Below are positions 30,815 to 46,052 of a stretch of 64,000 nucleotides of DNA, in pieces. Position 1 is the stretch's first letter, and each line of letters begins with the position of its first letter. The DNA comes from Bacteroidota bacterium (GTDB lineage: Bacteria; Bacteroidota; Bacteroidia; Chitinophagales; JADIYW01): NCBI GenBank assembly GCA_963169645.1, contig CAUJCO010000013.1, positions 324,142 to 388,141 on the forward strand, written 5' to 3'. The notes below the pieces were generated by a model that was not told the origin of the DNA, did not search any database, and was given only the letters and a program-made list of their open reading frames with translations. Position numbers and translations under genes: made by a program.

Positions 30815-31123
30815 ATGCAAACTATAATTTCTGAAAATATAGATGCAATCAAAGAAATCTGCAAAAAACACCATGTAAAAGAAATGGCTGTATTCGGATC
30901 TGTAACGAAAGATTATTTTTCAGAAAATAGTGATATTGATGTATTGATAGATTTTCAAGAAGATATCAAATTAGAAGACTATTCAACCAACTATTTTTCT
31001 TTTGAAGAAAGTTTAAAGGCTCTTTTAAATAAAGAGATAGACTTGGTTTCCAAAAAATTTATAGAAAATCCTTACTTTCTAGAATCTATTACAAAGAATA
31101 AAGAAACCTTGTATGTTGCTTGA
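30815..31123 (+). CDS. mntA: MntA-like minimal nucleotidyltransferase (antitoxin)
   Basis: VFGSVTKDYFSENSDIDVLIDF (GSx10DxD); overlaps HEPN partner. Confidence 0.88.
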   Translation: MQTIISENIDAIKEICKKHHVKEMAVFGSVTKDYFSENSDIDVLIDFQEDIKLEDYSTNYFSFEESLKALLNKEIDLVSKKFIENPYFLESITKNKETLYVA

Positions 31124-31448
31124 AGAAGAAAAATTACTTAGTGATATTCTAACTTCAATTACTTCAATAAATGAATACATTAAAGAAAATCGTTCTTTTG
31201 ATTTCTTCTATAAAAACAAAGTAATCCGCAGAGCTGTAGAACGAGAATTAGAAATTATTGGCGAAGCAGTCAGAAATTTACAGAAAATAAATTCTACTAT
31301 TAACTTATTACATTCGAAACAAATTATTGCAGTAAGAAATAGAATTGCTCATGCTTATGATGGAATTGATTATATTACGATTTGGAGTATTGTAATTAAA
31401 CATTTACCAGCATTAAAAATAGAAATAGAAACTTTATTTAACCAATAA
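31113..31448 (+). CDS. hepT: HepT-like HEPN ribonuclease (toxin)
   Basis: [12 protein letters not shown] matches RX4HXY; DUF86-type size; 11-nt overlap with mntA. Confidence 0.88.
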
Positions 31449-34322: not shown

Positions 34323-34357
34323 GAGGAAAATATTGTCTACTATTTTCCTCTTTTTTT
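34323..34357 (+). terminator. Terminator after aspS (likely bidirectional)
   Basis: GAGGAAAATA-TTGTCTAC-TATTTTCCTC then T7. Confidence 0.85.
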
Positions 34358-35318
34358 ATACAACTCTTTCTCTTTTCCTATTTTTCATATAATCTTCAAT
34401 AGCTTTTCTGGTAGTTAGCCAATTTCTGCCTTCTTTGTAGGCATCTATTTTTCCTTGGCGTGCCAACAAACTAATATACTCTTGACCATAAGGAACTCTC
34501 GGCTCTTCTACTAAAGAAGAAATCTCTTTGTATTCATCATCTTCATCACAAGGTAAAGCTTGCAAGTAAATATTAAGCGAACGCTCTAAGGCTTGTGCCA
34601 TCAACAAAGCTAATTTTTGATAACTTCCATTGTTAGCTTGGTTTAGAGCTTCGTAATATTTTTTTCTATCATTTTTTAAAATAATTGCCGGTGGAAATCC
34701 TTTTCGCATTAATAATAAATTCATCGCCAAGCGAACCGTTCTGCCATTTCCATCAAAAAATGGATGAATCCAAACTAAACGATGATGAAATATGGTAGAT
34801 AAAACAATATCATTTAATCCCAATGGATTTTCATTTACAAAATCTATTAACTCATCTAAAAGTTGGGAAACTTTATTGGCATTTGGCGGAACAAAATTGG
34901 CACCAACAATACGCACACCGCCATTTCTAATTCTTCCGGCAAAATTATCTTCAATACTACGCAATACCAAACCATGCAATGATAATATATCTATGCTTCT
35001 AAGCGTATAGTTTTCATTCACAATCTCGTAGAGATATTCAATCGCTTTCTCGTGATTATGTACTTCAAAATGCTCACGCAACGATTTTCCTTTCACAGTG
35101 ATACCTTCTTGTAAAATCAGATGTGTTTCATTTAGAGATAGCGTATTTCCTTCAATACTATTTGAATTATACGTCCATTCTATCGTCAAATCTTTTCGTA
35201 TTCTATGGAGTGCCATTGATGGCAATGGCCTTGCACTCATAAGCAATGCATTTTTTTCATACAATCTATCAAATGTAGATTGCATCTCTGTAATATCACT
35301 TAAATCTATCTTCCACAT
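34356..35318 (-). CDS. Fic-family protein with N-terminal inhibitory motif and C-terminal HTH-like tail
   Basis: HPFFDGNGRTVR; SNSIEGN inhibitory helix; C-terminal EYISLLARQGKIDAYKEGRNWLTTRKAIEDYM. Confidence 0.92.
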   Translation of the reverse strand: MWKIDLSDITEMQSTFDRLYEKNALLMSARPLPSMALHRIRKDLTIEWTYNSNSIEGNTLSLNETHLILQEGITVKGKSLREHFEVHNHEKAIEYLYEIVNENYTLRSIDILSLHGLVLRSIEDNFAGRIRNGGVRIVGANFVPPNANKVSQLLDELIDFVNENPLGLNDIVLSTIFHHRLVWIHPFFDGNGRTVRLAMNLLLMRKGFPPAIILKNDRKKYYEALNQANNGSYQKLALLMAQALERSLNIYLQALPCDEDDEYKEISSLVEEPRVPYGQEYISLLARQGKIDAYKEGRNWLTTRKAIEDYMKNRKRERVV

Positions 35319-35325
35319 CTTACCA

Positions 35326-35333
35326 CAAAGATA
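35326..35333 (-). promoter_or_regulatory. Candidate -7 box TATCTTTG of fic
   Basis: Reverse strand TATCTTTGTGGTAAGATG. Confidence 0.5.
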
Positions 35334-35335
35334 CG

Positions 35336-35379
35336 ATTAATATCGGATATTATCAATATCTATATTATCCGATATTAAT
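35336..35379. promoter_or_regulatory. Operator-like perfect inverted repeat upstream of fic
   Basis: ATTAATATCGGATA (35336-35349) / TATCCGATATTAAT (35366-35379), 16-nt spacer. Confidence 0.75.
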
Positions 35380-35387
35380 TTTTACAT

Positions 35388-35420
35388 AAAAAAACCGAGG
35401 ATTGCAACCTCGGTTTTTTT
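35388..35420 (-). terminator. Terminator of the metalloprotease gene
   Basis: AAAAACCGAGG-ATTGCAA-CCTCGGTTTTT. Confidence 0.88.
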
Positions 35421-35434
35421 ATTCAAAGAAAAAA

Positions 35435-38050
35435 TTATTTTTTAAGTTCTAGTGATTTGTTAATTAGATATGCTAAATGAGAACGATGTGCTTGTGTAGA
35501 TAAATTACTACCATACGCTGTTTCCATCCATTTAAGAATTCTACTTAATTCACCAAATGCAGTGGCTTTACTTGTAAACGCATACGGTGATTTTTCTTGT
35601 ACTATGTTCAATAAACGGGTTACATATTCTGTTTGTAAGTTTTGGCGAATCGTTGAAACGCTTGCACCTAAATCTTGTATGAAAATACCGTTTGTTAAAT
35701 CGCGCAACATCAAATCCTCACCATATTTATTTCCATATAATTTTGAATCTGTTAAACGTTGCAACACAGATGAATTAAGCAAATGATCTAAAACACCTTT
35801 TTGAATTGTTATAATTCGCTCATGGATTTTTGGATCTTCAGTTTCTTTTCTAAAATCGTAACCACGACGCTGCATCTGCAAATAATTATATAATTCGTCC
35901 GGAGCTGCAAACGCTTCTTTAGAGAAAGCATATTTTACCAATGCTTGCATAGCAGCTTTTTGTTCTTTAAGTGGAATTGGTGTAAATGGTTTGGATGTTG
36001 AATTTTGAGTAGCAAAATTTCTATTTACATACACACCACCAATATATCTATCAATTACATTTAAGCTACGAGCATAATGACCTGTTAAGGTTAAATATGC
36101 TTTTCTTAATTCGTGATAAGAAGTATTTGATTTTCCGTATTTCTCTAATAATTTGGGTAATGCGTTGTTTACCATTTTAATATTTTCAACAGCATACGCT
36201 ATTGCATCATCTGACATATCGCTAATATTTCCTCTTGGGTCAATGCCTTTTCCTACGGAACGCATATCATCGGCATCATTTTTAAATTGGTATTCTTTTT
36301 TATTGGACTCCGATACTATTTTTTCCAATCCTTCTTTTTCTTCGTCCGCATTTTTAAACTGAGAATAGCCATATTGAATTGCCCATTTATCATATAAGCC
36401 GGGTTTGATATCAAAATATAAACCTTGTTTATTTTTATCGGGTGAGATATTTGGAATTGTATAATCCATAACGGATGCCGTTAACCCAACAGTTGCTCCT
36501 AAAACGGGATCTTGCATTTGCTCCATCGTATGTAACTGTGAACCCATAAAATTATGCATCAAGCCAAAAGTATGTCCAACTTCATGCAATACTAAATCAT
36601 ACAATGCTTGTTTAATAAACTCATCTTTATCAATATCAGAAAAATCAAATGCTGTCATTAAATCCTTACCTACAAGAACATTGTGGTGCATAGCTTCACC
36701 AAACGAACATTCCGAATTATGCAAAAGGTGCTCATCTTGGAAATTATCTAAACCAGCGATATCATATAATTTTTCGAGTGGCAATCTGTTGGTTAAATAA
36801 ACAAACTCCAACATAATATCTGCACCTAAAATTTCACCTGTTCGAGGATTAACAAAACTTGGCCCATAACCACCAAATGGCGGACGCGGTGAAGAAGTCC
36901 ATCTCAACACATTGTATCGGATATCATCCGCTTCCCATGTAGCATCATCCGGTTGCTCGTAGCACTCAACTGCATTTTTAAATCCAGCTTGTTCAAATGC
37001 TTCGTTCCAAGCTAAAACTGCATTTTTAATGATAGGTCTAAACTCTTTGGGTGTTGTATTTTCAATCCACCAAACAACCGGTTTTACCGGTTCTGATAAT
37101 TTTTCATCCGGATTTTTTTTCTCTAAATGCCAACGATGAATTAAATCTTTCCATGGTGTTGCACTTGCAGAAGTTTGGTCATTAATTTTTTCCATAAAAT
37201 AACCTACTCGCGGATCATCTGCTCTTGGTTTGTAATTATTTTGTGGAACTTCTATTAAGCTATGTTGCATTTTCACCGAAACAAAACGAGCATCCGTAAC
37301 TTCTTCGGTGCCATAATTTATCGGTGCCGGATTGTCAAAAACATATTCAACCGCTACATCTGTGTTGCTTGGGAAATTTTTTACGGCGATGTATTTTGAT
37401 TTTTTACTATTGAGCGTACCTAAAGTGAAAGCATCCGGTTTTTCACCCGGCATTTTGGATGGTTTAATTTGAGTAATACTTTCACCTAAAAACAAATTAT
37501 CTGCTTCAATTAAATAAGTTTTGCCAGTAGCAGCTACAATTTTTTCTGATAAGAAAATGGGCTTGTTTACGTTGGCATCTTTGGATTTGCTTAACGCATT
37601 ATTTTCATCAAAATAGTAATTGGTATTTTGCAGAACAAAATCAATTCTATCAAAATATTTTTCAATTTTAAAAATGGAATTATCTTTATATCCTCCACGA
37701 GCATATCCAGTGCTTAAATAACCATCTAACACATACGCGAAATAAATAAACTCTTTCCCTATTTTATCTGTACTAATTTCGATATAGGTTTTTCCATTGG
37801 TTGAATCCTGATAGATTGGAAACAAACCGGAAGTTTTTTTACATTTTTCGGTAACTTCTTTAATGGATTTGAATTGCGGTTTTGCGTCCTTTTTAGTCGT
37901 GTCTTTTACGGATGCTGCAGAAGAATCAGTCATCATTTGCACGGTCGACTTTTTGTCATCACGTTTTTTCTTGTCTTTCTTCGCAAATGCACTTACACAA
38001 ATTAGTGTACATGCTAATACGAATAAAGTACTGCGTTTAAATAATTTCAT
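35435..38050 (-). CDS. Zinc-dependent metalloprotease (DUF5117/DUF5118-like)
   Basis: HEVGHTFGLMHNF; signal peptide; MDYTIPNISP. Confidence 0.92.
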   Translation of the reverse strand: MKLFKRSTLFVLACTLICVSAFAKKDKKKRDDKKSTVQMMTDSSAASVKDTTKKDAKPQFKSIKEVTEKCKKTSGLFPIYQDSTNGKTYIEISTDKIGKEFIYFAYVLDGYLSTGYARGGYKDNSIFKIEKYFDRIDFVLQNTNYYFDENNALSKSKDANVNKPIFLSEKIVAATGKTYLIEADNLFLGESITQIKPSKMPGEKPDAFTLGTLNSKKSKYIAVKNFPSNTDVAVEYVFDNPAPINYGTEEVTDARFVSVKMQHSLIEVPQNNYKPRADDPRVGYFMEKINDQTSASATPWKDLIHRWHLEKKNPDEKLSEPVKPVVWWIENTTPKEFRPIIKNAVLAWNEAFEQAGFKNAVECYEQPDDATWEADDIRYNVLRWTSSPRPPFGGYGPSFVNPRTGEILGADIMLEFVYLTNRLPLEKLYDIAGLDNFQDEHLLHNSECSFGEAMHHNVLVGKDLMTAFDFSDIDKDEFIKQALYDLVLHEVGHTFGLMHNFMGSQLHTMEQMQDPVLGATVGLTASVMDYTIPNISPDKNKQGLYFDIKPGLYDKWAIQYGYSQFKNADEEKEGLEKIVSESNKKEYQFKNDADDMRSVGKGIDPRGNISDMSDDAIAYAVENIKMVNNALPKLLEKYGKSNTSYHELRKAYLTLTGHYARSLNVIDRYIGGVYVNRNFATQNSTSKPFTPIPLKEQKAAMQALVKYAFSKEAFAAPDELYNYLQMQRRGYDFRKETEDPKIHERIITIQKGVLDHLLNSSVLQRLTDSKLYGNKYGEDLMLRDLTNGIFIQDLGASVSTIRQNLQTEYVTRLLNIVQEKSPYAFTSKATAFGELSRILKWMETAYGSNLSTQAHRSHLAYLINKSLELKK

Positions 38051-38151: not shown

Positions 38152-38478
38152 TTATTTTTTATATTGACAACATTGTGGCAATTTAGAATAAGCTGCATCG
38201 GTAGTTTTAATAGAGTCCGTATCGTATCCGGCATCTGCAATGCGTTGCTTAATAGAATCTAAGCTGATTTTGCTTGGAGCAAACACCACAGACATGATGT
38301 TACTCACTTCATTCCATTCTGCTTTTTTAACGCCGTTTACAAATGCTGCTTTTTCAATGCGTTCTTTACACATTTCGCAATTTCCGGACACTTTGAAAGA
38401 TGCCTTTGTTAATACGTCTTTTGCAAAACTACTTGAGCAAGCAAATAAAAGAGCAAAAGCCATTAATATATTTTTCAT
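38152..38478 (-). CDS. Secreted heavy-metal-associated (HMA) domain protein
   Basis: SFKVSGNCEMCKERIEKAAFVNGVKKAEWN; signal peptide; C-terminal QCCQYKK. Confidence 0.88.
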   Translation of the reverse strand: MKNILMAFALLFACSSSFAKDVLTKASFKVSGNCEMCKERIEKAAFVNGVKKAEWNEVSNIMSVVFAPSKISLDSIKQRIADAGYDTDSIKTTDAAYSKLPQCCQYKK

Positions 38479-38503
38479 TGTTATAATATTTAATTTTTAG
38501 AAA

Positions 38504-38827
38504 TTATTTTTTCGAATCTTTAGAGCAACAAGCATCCTTTTTTTCACCTACTGCACCTGTTGAAGTGGAATCACAATGTGCCTTATCCATCATTTTTCCA
38601 TCTTTTTTGCAGCAAGATTTTTCGTCGCCTGCTCCACATTTATCACAGCATTTATTATCTGCAGTACATTCGCCTTTGCAGTTATCACAGCATTTTTCTG
38701 TTTTGCAGCAACTTGTTTTTTCACACTTTTCGTCTTTGTGGCATTTCTTGTTATTACATGCCGTAAAACCGAATAATAATACAGCTATTACCATAATAAC
38801 TGCTACGATTGATGTTGTTTGTTTCAT
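38504..38827 (-). CDS. Cys-rich lipoprotein, metallothionein-like
   Basis: FGFTAC lipobox; 17 Cys in 107 aa with repeated CC and CxxC. Confidence 0.72.
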   Translation of the reverse strand: MKQTTSIVAVIMVIAVLLFGFTACNNKKCHKDEKCEKTSCCKTEKCCDNCKGECTADNKCCDKCGAGDEKSCCKKDGKMMDKAHCDSTSTGAVGEKKDACCSKDSKK

Positions 38828-38845
38828 TTTGTTTGTTTTAATATT

Positions 38846-41032
38846 TTAGTTAATAAAAATTCTAAATCCACCATAAACGGTTGCACCCATTGACGGAGCA
38901 TACACTTGGTATGTATCAAAAAGCGTGCTAAACGGTGTACCAATTATCAAATCTTTTTGTTTAAAGTTAGTGATATTCTCACATCCTAAAAACAATTCAG
39001 CCCGTTTAAAATATTTCATTATTTGTGCATTCAATAATACATATCTAGGTGAAAAGCGTTTGCCGGTATCCGACAAAAAACTATTAGGCAATCTTCGTTT
39101 CCCATTGATAGCTGTATTCACGTCAAATTGCCATTGTTTATTAGGAGTTCGATAGCTTAAGGCAACTAAACCTTTATTCATTGAAACCAACGGTTTTTGT
39201 AGTAATTGGCCATGATATGTTGCACGAACATCTTCTAAACGATAGGCCATTTTTATATCCAATCCTTTTAATGCTTCGAAATTAAACTCCAGCAACAAAC
39301 TATTGGAAAATGATTTTCCATCTAAGTTATAAATAGTAGCATTTCCATCTGCATTATCAATATCAACAATCGCTTGTTTTAAGAAGTCTGTTCTAAAAAA
39401 ATCTACGGAGAAACTACCTTCTCTATTAAATAGATTAAATTTCTGGGTTAGTGAAACGCCATAATTCCAAGCTACTTCTTTTGTAGGATTTTCTTTAAAA
39501 ATGATTTCACGGGAACTTGCCAATAAAGATTGATTCTCCGTAAGCACGTTTGGTGCTCTAAATCCGCTACCCACTGCAACACGTAATGTTGTTTTATCTG
39601 CCAAGGCAAATTTAGCATGAATACGAGGATTTATTTGAAAACCTGCACGGGAATGATAATCACCTCTTAAGCCGGAAACTAATGTGATTTTATTGCTCCA
39701 TTTAAACGTATATTCTGCAAAAAAGCCCGGAACGAAATCTTGATAATTCCTATCCAATGAATCTAATTCTTCTTTCAAATTATCATAAACAAAATTTACA
39801 CCACCAACCAATGTATGCATATCGCTGTTTTTCACTTGACTTTGAAATAGAATATTTCCGGTGAATGTTGCTTGTTTGGTATTGAATTGTTTTAATCCGT
39901 AATTAGATTTTTGTTGATGATAAACTCCGGAAAACTGTGTTCCCAAACTTTTATTTCCTTTGCCATCAAAAATAAATCCTGTTTTGGCAAATGCTTCTAC
40001 TCGTTTCGTGTTAATATTAATCGCATATAATGGCATGGATAAATGAGGCGTTGTTTGTCCGGCAATGCGGTTTTCACTCAATACTTTTACCATGTATTGT
40101 CCTTCCGTTTTATCATTCCGATAATTCCATCTATTCAGTAAATTATATTGTTTCATTACGGGCTGATCCAAGAAACCATCGTGATTCATATCTTGTTTTA
40201 ATGGTGTAAAAGCACCGTTTGCCATAAGCATAGTTCCCAATTTCTGATTGATTTTATGATTAATCAACAAGTTGGTTTCCAAACGTGCATTTTGATTTCC
40301 AAAAAAATCAACATATAATTTGGTCGAATCATTGAAGCTGGATTTAAACTCCACATTCATAGAGCCGGTAATTCCTTCATAACTGTTTTTTACGGATGGA
40401 ACTCCTTTAGAAACCGAAATGGATTTTATCCAAGGAGCCGGAATATTATCTAACCCAAACGTAGTTGTTAAACCGCGTAGAAATGGTACGCCTTCCAATA
40501 AATTCTGCACATACGTTCCATTTAAACCGAGTAATTTAATTTCTTTTGCACCGGTAACAGCATCGGAATAATTTACATCCACGGAAGCATTGGATTGAAA
40601 ACTTTCAGATAAGTTACAACACGCCGCTTTCTTTAACTCACCTGCTTCTATTTTTTCCGTTTTCATCGGGTCAATAGATGATATATAATTACTTTGACGG
40701 CGGCCTTGTATGCTTACTTCGTTTAAGAAGATTTCCGGTTGTAATTCTATTTTCAAAGGTTGTAAATCATTTACCAAGATAGTATCCGTTACATATCCGA
40801 CATAGCTTACCACAAGTTGTTTGGGTAGAACGCCACTTATTTCCAATTGTGCTATTCCATTTTCATCCGAAGTAGCACCAATCAATGTATCCATCCATTG
40901 TACATTCGCACCATATAATAAATCGCCGTTGCTTTTATCCGTGATGGTAATTTCTATTTGTTGTTGTTGGCTAAACCCAAACTGATATATACAAATTAGG
41001 TATAATAAGAGCCAATTTTTTACATGTTTCAT
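38846..41032 (-). CDS. TonB-dependent receptor, likely metal-related
   Basis: Signal peptide, CarboxypepD_reg-like N-terminus, plug domain with KKAACCNLSESFQSNASVDVNYSDAVTGAKEIKLLGL, barrel C-terminus. Confidence 0.9.
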   Translation of the reverse strand: MKHVKNWLLLYLICIYQFGFSQQQQIEITITDKSNGDLLYGANVQWMDTLIGATSDENGIAQLEISGVLPKQLVVSYVGYVTDTILVNDLQPLKIELQPEIFLNEVSIQGRRQSNYISSIDPMKTEKIEAGELKKAACCNLSESFQSNASVDVNYSDAVTGAKEIKLLGLNGTYVQNLLEGVPFLRGLTTTFGLDNIPAPWIKSISVSKGVPSVKNSYEGITGSMNVEFKSSFNDSTKLYVDFFGNQNARLETNLLINHKINQKLGTMLMANGAFTPLKQDMNHDGFLDQPVMKQYNLLNRWNYRNDKTEGQYMVKVLSENRIAGQTTPHLSMPLYAININTKRVEAFAKTGFIFDGKGNKSLGTQFSGVYHQQKSNYGLKQFNTKQATFTGNILFQSQVKNSDMHTLVGGVNFVYDNLKEELDSLDRNYQDFVPGFFAEYTFKWSNKITLVSGLRGDYHSRAGFQINPRIHAKFALADKTTLRVAVGSGFRAPNVLTENQSLLASSREIIFKENPTKEVAWNYGVSLTQKFNLFNREGSFSVDFFRTDFLKQAIVDIDNADGNATIYNLDGKSFSNSLLLEFNFEALKGLDIKMAYRLEDVRATYHGQLLQKPLVSMNKGLVALSYRTPNKQWQFDVNTAINGKRRLPNSFLSDTGKRFSPRYVLLNAQIMKYFKRAELFLGCENITNFKQKDLIIGTPFSTLFDTYQVYAPSMGATVYGGFRIFIN

Positions 41033-41082
41033 TATTATTTGTTAGTCGTGAATAAAATTGTTTTCTGAGAAACAACTCACTG

Positions 41083-41532
41083 CTAACAACGGAAAATTTG
41101 CAACTTCGTTGAAGTTGGCTGAAGAGACGTTTGAATGACGTAATAGTAAAGATTATCCGGTGGTGGTAATCCGGAAAAATAGTGTACTGTTATACTAGAA
41201 AAAAAGTGCGAATATGGATAATTGAAATCAAATTTTTGTATAAATTTTTCAATGTTTGATTTCAATTCTAATTGCTTAGCAACGAATCCTTCAATTGAGA
41301 GTTTGGAGAAAAATTGTTTGTGGCTACAACAATCTTTTTTCGTTTTTTTTGATTCTATTTTAGTACAGCACGAGGAAACCGGTGCTTCATTCTCACAAGT
41401 CGGCTTTATAAAAGCTTGAAAACTCTTCGTGTTAGACGTACTACAAATATGCTCGAACAAAGCAACACCATTAGCAGAAAAAAGGACGATTCCTGCTAAA
41501 AACAATGCTGATATGTTCCATTTAAACTTCAT
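41083..41532 (-). CDS. Small Cys-containing secreted protein (HYC_CC_PP-like)
   Basis: HIC...CCTKIESKKTKKDCCSHK...GLPPPDN; start moved to MKFKWNIS from track 41571. Confidence 0.65.
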   Translation of the reverse strand: MKFKWNISALFLAGIVLFSANGVALFEHICSTSNTKSFQAFIKPTCENEAPVSSCCTKIESKKTKKDCCSHKQFFSKLSIEGFVAKQLELKSNIEKFIQKFDFNYPYSHFFSSITVHYFSGLPPPDNLYYYVIQTSLQPTSTKLQIFRC

Positions 41533-41643
41533 AATACAATGCAATACAAAGCTAACAACATATAATGACAATTAAGTAGCTAAATTGTTTATACTTAGTT
41601 AAAAAATCTCAGGAATTTAGTATTGTATTAATATAAGATTTAT

Positions 41644-45257: not shown

Positions 45258-46052
45258 ATGGGAAAACATTTAAAATTTATTTCTGTAGAATACCTTGAAA
45301 CCTATGCATCAAAATGCGATATAGATTGGTTAGCGGTATTTCATAAATTAAGAGCAAAATCGAATTTCAGCACCGAAGATTTTGAATACTATTTAATCGC
45401 TTCATCTTTATATTCAACTAAAATAGAGGGCAATACTTTGGATGCCAACAGTTTTTTCAGAAATAGAGACAACAAAAGTTTTCCAAAGAAAAACGAAGTA
45501 CAAGAAATTGAAGACTTGGTATTAGCTTACAAATTTGCTTCTGAAAACAACCTAGATAAAACCAATTTTCTAAAAATACATGGTATTCTATCTAAAACAC
45601 TATTATCGGCAAAATTACGTGGCAAAATTAGAAAAGAACAAGTAGGTGTACGTGATACTCAAACAATGAAACCAATTTATTTAGCAGTTGAACCACAATA
45701 TGTAAATGAAGAACTCAACAAACTATTTTCTGACATTACAGAATTAAAGAAACGCAACTTATCTTACAAAGAGGTTTTCTATTATGCATCTATGATTCAT
45801 TTATGGATAGCCAAAATACATCCATTTATGGACGGCAACGGACGATCGGCACGTTTATTGGAAAAATGGTTTTTAGCCTCAAAACTCGGAATATCTGCAT
45901 GGTCTATCAATTCAGAAAAATATTACTGGGATAACAGGCCTTTGTATTATCAAAACATTGCATTAGGGTACAATTATTACACGCTATATTGGAATAGATG
46001 TTTACCATTCTTATTGATGTTACCGGAAGCACTCAAAGTATCTATTGAGTAA
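45258..46052 (+). CDS. Fic-family protein
   Basis: HPFMDGNGRSAR; inhibitory motif STKIEGN. Confidence 0.92.
   Translation: MGKHLKFISVEYLETYASKCDIDWLAVFHKLRAKSNFSTEDFEYYLIASSLYSTKIEGNTLDANSFFRNRDNKSFPKKNEVQEIEDLVLAYKFASENNLDKTNFLKIHGILSKTLLSAKLRGKIRKEQVGVRDTQTMKPIYLAVEPQYVNEELNKLFSDITELKKRNLSYKEVFYYASMIHLWIAKIHPFMDGNGRSARLLEKWFLASKLGISAWSINSEKYYWDNRPLYYQNIALGYNYYTLYWNRCLPFLLMLPEALKVSIE

Follow-up and report, generated by a model that had tools for sequence, protein, structure and literature searches.

Results

The fic gene and its surroundings

At positions 34356-35318 (minus strand) of the window, by which we mean the whole 64,000-nucleotide stretch of DNA analysed here, lies fic, which encodes a predicted class II Fic AMP-transferase of 320 residues (Pfam PF02661, E 2.9e-17) with a putative C-terminal helix-turn-helix (HTH) domain. 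The active-site motif HPFFDGNGRTVR occupies residues 185-196 and conforms to HxFx(D/E)GNGRxxR, and its catalytic residues are invariant among 26 orthologues. An inhibitory motif of the form (S/T)xxxE(G/N), here SNSIEGN, is found at about residues 52-58, N-terminal to the Fic core, and its E56, G57 and N58 are invariant in the same 26 proteins. The nearest solved structures are FICD/HYPE and FIC-1 of C. elegans (sequence E 6e-42, with the fold in agreement). By its intact motifs the protein would thus be a class II AMP-transferase, presumably active in AMPylation.

The neighbours of fic in the window are aspS and a met-zincin gene (they vary between species), and no ORF for a small antitoxin partner lies next to it. 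A phd-doc type II toxin-antitoxin operon was therefore rejected. Among the adjoining genes read in the window there is no T6SS gene. The large met-zincin metalloprotease (DUF5117/DUF4953; 35435-38050, minus strand) lies upstream of fic and is followed by a strong, terminator-like hairpin with a T run (inverted repeat I1; 35381-35427, minus strand), whose 20-nt arms are 90% complementary and 7 nt apart. The position of this hairpin, upstream of the fic promoter region, suggests that fic is a transcription unit of its own.

Several other genes in the window were recorded. A second, distant Fic gene (45258-46052, plus strand; 264 aa, PF02661 E 6.7e-15) has the motifs IHPFMDGNGRSARL and STKIEGN, lacks a C-terminal HTH and does not have the inverted repeat of the first fic gene (described below) upstream. 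Overlapping genes for an MNT nucleotidyltransferase (30815-31123) and a HepT-like (HEPN) protein (31113-31448), both on the plus strand, have the layout of an MntA-HepT toxin-antitoxin pair and are situated between GDP-mannose dehydratase-like and GDP-fucose synthase-like (nucleotide-sugar) genes. Finally, a minus-strand cluster at 38152-41571, encoding an HMA-like secreted protein, a small Cys-rich protein and a TonB-dependent-receptor-like protein, is possibly metal-related.

An inverted repeat over the fic promoter

Read along the fic coding strand (minus), the intergenic region runs ATTAATATCGGATA-ATATAGATATTGATAA-TATCCGATATTAAT-CG-TATCTTTG-TGGTAAG-ATG. An inverted repeat, ATTAATATCGGATA-N16-TATCCGATATTAAT, extends over 35336-35379, 17 nt upstream of fic, and consists of a fic-distal arm (ATTAATATCGGATA, 35366-35379) and a promoter-side arm (TATCCGATATTAAT, 35336-35349) of 14 bp each, perfectly complementary and separated by a 16-nt spacer (35350-35365). 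The 2-nt gap CG separates the proximal arm from a -7 promoter box of the Bacteroidota type, TAnnTTTG (TATCTTTG, 35333-35326), and the fic ATG (35318) follows after another 7 nt. A TTG within the spacer (35356-35354), 20 nt upstream of the -7 box, occupies a -33-like position. A preliminary description of this DNA had reported the perfect 14-bp repeat with its N16 spacer, the 2 nt that separate it from the -7 box, and the TTG; all of these were confirmed. Of 60 dinucleotide-shuffled versions of the 64-kb window, 8% also contained perfect arms of at least 14 bp with a spacer of 3-40 nt, so the repeat alone is only mildly surprising and is weak evidence; its conservation is what decides. The two-arm site occurs only once in the window's own 2.70-Mb genome.

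Conservation of the site among orthologues

A protein search yielded 80 orthologues (75-89% identity) from Flavobacterium, Pedobacter, Chitinophagales MAGs and Pseudarcicella, and in 80 of 80 the inverted repeat is found directly upstream of fic. The expectation that it would be kept upstream of orthologous genes was therefore borne out, as it was for every one of the 52 Flavobacterium fic genes whose 5' end is complete. Homologues at 57-68% identity likewise have the repeat. For a closer comparison of its parts, 83 upstream regions were used: the window, the 80 orthologues and two homologues at 60-64% identity.

In the distal arm, TATCGGATA is almost invariant across these 83 regions. The proximal arm has CGATA, a string that belonged to the search pattern, in all 83, and its inner end is degenerate; it is the outer part, CGATA(A/T)TA, that is mainly fixed. 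Each arm had been described as a near-palindrome; as the distal arm (TTAATATCGGATA) is nearly invariant and the proximal arm is not, the two intra-arm near-palindromes are unequally conserved. The spacer from TATCGGATA to TATCCGATA measures 16 nt in 69 regions, 15 in 13 and 17 in one. In all but two regions, anything from 4 to 8 nt lies between the proximal arm and the -7 box. A fixed distance between the arms, with a variable one to the -7 box, is expected of a site for a protein dimer and not of a part of the promoter. Outside the arms, information content declines towards background except in an A-rich stretch, a TT within the spacer (conservation 0.94/0.88) and the promoter.

The TAnnTTTG box is present in 81 of 81 upstream regions. 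A TTG at exactly the -33 offset occurs in 17 of the 81, against 0-2 at other offsets, and so looks to be a genuine element, though not one of every promoter. The start codon comes 3-8 nt past TAnnTTTG in 74 of the 81. Taking the transcript start from the promoter type, the fic mRNA is thus probably near-leaderless, with the inverted repeat outside the transcript.

The genes around fic differ from one locus to another (a ClC channel and uvrA in L014, an ABC transporter in L022, the metalloprotease and aspS in the window), and the repeat stays with fic while surrounding sequence and neighbours change across genera. It is present at a locus of opposite orientation (L095), and in one case (L151) its proximal arm is visibly degenerate. 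On this pattern of conservation, we take the inverted repeat to be a functional site, not a product of chance. In Pedobacter fastidiosus (L037), a second repeat, TAATATCGGATA...TATCCGATATT, lies about 60-110 bp upstream of fic, just above the usual one, and may be a tandem operator or a terminator that has grown from an operator.

The C-terminal domain

The preliminary description had noted an HTH-like C-terminus in the Fic protein, and profile and fold comparisons agree with it. The C-terminal 60 or so residues (about residues 259-320; 34359-34544, minus strand) matched HTH_17 in 25 of 26 orthologues, although the window protein itself scored 18.1 bits, below the Pfam cut-off of 27 and thus short of the curated profile's own standard. 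An excisionase model gave a weak match to the same domain. The AF2 model of the domain contains a helix-turn-helix, a two-stranded wing and a last helix (H17-20, H30-39, E44-47, E50-53, H55-64), which in the full protein corresponds to a predicted recognition helix at residues 279-287 and wing strands at 293-296 and 299-302. The best Foldseek hits to PDB folds were complexes of lambda Xis with DNA, at a probability of 0.99 but an E value of 0.05; a profile of the domain run against PDB sequences returned only weak, irrelevant matches. The stretch PYGQEYISLLARQGKIDAYKEGRNW is among the most conserved of the Fic protein across the 26 orthologues. The domain therefore looks like a winged HTH of the Xis/HTH_17 type in its modelled fold.

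Searches from the site to the gene

The strict site was looked for in 396 Bacteroidota genomes and turned up in 16, in seven of which it lies in non-coding DNA immediately 5' of this fic. Nearly all the remaining matches fall within longer ORFs, often in the gene for one conserved Flavobacterium protein; the match in L134, covered by an open frame of only 76 codons, may or may not be coding. Within Flavobacterium, fic is present in 53 of 200 genomes. The strict pattern adjoins it at 47 of the 53 loci and five more (L364-L368) have a slightly degenerate repeat; the last (L369, 1-1497) is a 5'-truncated fragment behind a transposase-like ORF. Other Flavobacterium matches were coding wherever examined, apart from extra copies in L360 and L361; three of them (G631, G457, G547), along with additional occurrences of the conserved coding motif, were called coding by sequence similarity only. 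With three matches classed in this way, none in the fic-less genomes among the 200 was recognised as intergenic. The site is thus linked near-exclusively to HTH-bearing fic genes.

The extra palindromic copies occur in genomes that also carry fic, and other targets are therefore possible. L360 has two copies about 650 bp apart (2219-2258 and 2869-2908), one at fic and one by a ClC gene without a clear promoter; no similarity to fic was found in the stretch between them. L361 has a lone intergenic copy (2370-2409) that follows an HxlR-like regulator gene, with an SDR/epimerase-like gene about 130 bp downstream; this copy is possibly a second target or a relic. A protein search of viral contigs found no Fic relatives, and the short inverted-repeat pattern gave many low-specificity matches there among the matches listed.

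Probable linked divergence of HTH and site

Fic homologues lacking the C-terminal domain offered a further comparison. The inverted repeat is absent upstream of the 27 compared (18 from Bacteroidota and nine plasmid-borne), and the nine plasmid-borne genes have no strong upstream repeat of any sequence. Phyla other than Bacteroidota were sampled via plasmid records only, and among these a homologue from Candidatus Chlorohelix (Chloroflexota; 43% identity) has a divergent HTH_17 domain (27.0 bits, at the Pfam cut-off) with a recognition helix different from that of the Bacteroidota proteins. Its gene is preceded, 18 nt before the ATG, by a different 17-bp inverted repeat, AGATAATTACTACGAAT-N16-ATTCGTGGTAATTATCT, and none of 100 shuffles of the upstream region scored as high as the native repeat. 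A different HTH with a different repeat indicates that the site changes with the HTH. The arm centres are 33 bp apart in Chlorohelix, and the same 33 bp separates the conserved TTAATATCG cores in Bacteroidota. These sequences provide evidence for a joint divergence of operator and HTH in which the arm spacing is retained.

In a phylogenetic tree, the HTH-bearing Fic proteins form one clade (support 90/92), in which Chlorohelix sits on a long branch. HTH and site were thus probably gained once and diverged jointly afterwards, as opposed to many separate gains; for the same reason, the association between them counts as one evolutionary event, the Chlorohelix divergence aside.

Discussion

The layout and conservation of this locus point to an enzyme that controls its own gene, in support of the autorepressed AMPylator suggested by the preliminary description. 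We infer that a Fic dimer contacts the repeat with its C-terminal HTHs and represses rather than activates its own near-leaderless promoter, a reading that we consider very likely and for which CccR serves as the precedent (PMC9755527). In this way a class II Fic AMP-transferase, encoded by a stand-alone gene on the chromosome, would set its own level. Two Fic protomers would occupy the two arms through their Xis/HTH_17-like winged HTHs; with the arm cores 33 bp, or about three helical turns, from centre to centre, the arms would lie on the same face of the helix. Once bound, the dimer would extend over the -33 element as far as the margin of the -7 box and keep RNA polymerase out. Repression would be the natural outcome of a dimer so placed, and fic, transcribed as a near-leaderless, monocistronic mRNA, would be under negative autoregulation. 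The state of the enzyme may, in addition, be coupled to operator occupancy.

Fic could alternatively bind the site as an activator, or the binding could serve above all to gate the enzyme's activity, with little effect on transcription. Such gating would resemble CbFic2 of Coxiella, whose C-terminal winged HTH binds DNA, dimerises and alters (de)AMPylation (PMC10628234). However, a proximal arm that abuts the -7 box, with the -33 region between the arms, is in the position of a repressor site, and CccR does repress (PMC9755527), which makes activation or gating very unlikely here. It is very unlikely that the repeat is the operator of a separately encoded transcription factor and that the Fic HTH serves some other role. 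Fic is, admittedly, a predicted binder, and the window protein matches HTH_17 below the threshold, but the site is found almost nowhere except at fic promoters, is present a single time in the window genome and was not identified between genes in fic-less Flavobacterium genomes (three matches called coding by similarity). Furthermore, a conserved neighbour encoding a regulator was not found in the loci read, and the site is missing from HTH-less homologues and different in the Chloroflexota homologue with its different HTH. Given this near-exclusivity and the absence from HTH-less homologues, we rejected the operator of an unrelated regulator.

The repeat might also work as RNA, in a terminator or attenuator hairpin, or be a chance feature or mobile-element relic, and the second copy in L360, which has no evident gene of its own, would suit a relic. 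Against this, the -7 box comes after the repeat, which should therefore be outside the fic mRNA, and a separate terminator is already present upstream. Nor do the two arms vary alike, the distal one being constant at positions where the proximal one changes, unlike the arms of a hairpin. The hairpin was rejected on the position of the repeat and the unequal variation of its arms, and with conservation across genera despite changing gene contexts, an RNA or relic origin is extremely improbable. We therefore favour autorepression by Fic.

The closest precedent for autorepression by Fic is CccR of Yersinia pseudotuberculosis, a Fic protein that carries an HTH at its C-terminus, represses its own promoter via AGATAATCAT-N26-ATGATAATCT and, as a T6SS effector, AMPylates FtsZ (PMC9755527). 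It is named as the self-repressing case in a 2026 review (PMC12894286). CccR and the present Fic are both class II proteins with an HTH in the same chain (predicted here), and both have a perfect, widely spaced inverted repeat in their own promoter. The two would also share a dimeric state, described for CccR in its paper and deduced for the present protein. The CccR operator measures 36 bp from centre to centre, against 33 bp for the present TTAATATCGGATA-N16 arrangement. Unlike CccR, the present Fic has a core nearest FICD/HYPE among solved structures, and its gene stands alone in Bacteroidota; its HTH appears Xis/HTH_17-like, CccR being compared from the description in its paper.

CbFic2 of Coxiella burnetii (PDB 8cil) similarly belongs to the class II Fic proteins and has a winged HTH at its C-terminus (predicted in our case), through which DNA promotes dimerisation and DNA binding is coupled to dimerisation and (de)AMPylation (PMC10628234). 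It differs in that the domain is of the DeoR type, in that random DNA and no cognate operator was used, and in its proposed role, the modification of host histone H3 (PMC10628234). FICD/HYPE and C. elegans FIC-1 have the closest solved Fic core, inhibitory IEGN helix included, but are eukaryotic and lack an HTH, and FICD has N-terminal TPRs. In phd-doc, a Fic-fold protein is likewise encoded by an operon under negative autoregulation, but there a separate antitoxin binds the DNA, whereas here the HTH is fused to Fic and there is no antitoxin gene.

In summary, autorepressed Fic-HTH enzymes are already known, from CccR, and searches of the open-access literature found no Bacteroidota case. What is new is a large FICD-like subfamily in Bacteroidota with an Xis-like HTH and a different operator and spacing, along with the evidence that HTH and operator have diverged jointly at a constant spacing. 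To our knowledge, most HTH-bearing Fic proteins are without a known DNA target. The work provides a defined, conserved candidate operator for this large FICD-resembling subfamily, in culturable species of Flavobacterium and Pedobacter. The dimer state of FICD switches AMPylation and deAMPylation, and the link between the dimer state of a Fic protein and gene control now becomes directly testable. It is tempting, although doubtful as a general rule, to view HTH-bearing Fic enzymes as a class of self-metering, one-component AMP-transferases: the operator, its arms at a fixed distance of about 33 bp, would read the dimer, and the oligomeric or AMPylation state of the enzyme would directly set its transcription. 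These findings suggest that CccR-like self-repression may be a wider theme, played out with different types of HTH.
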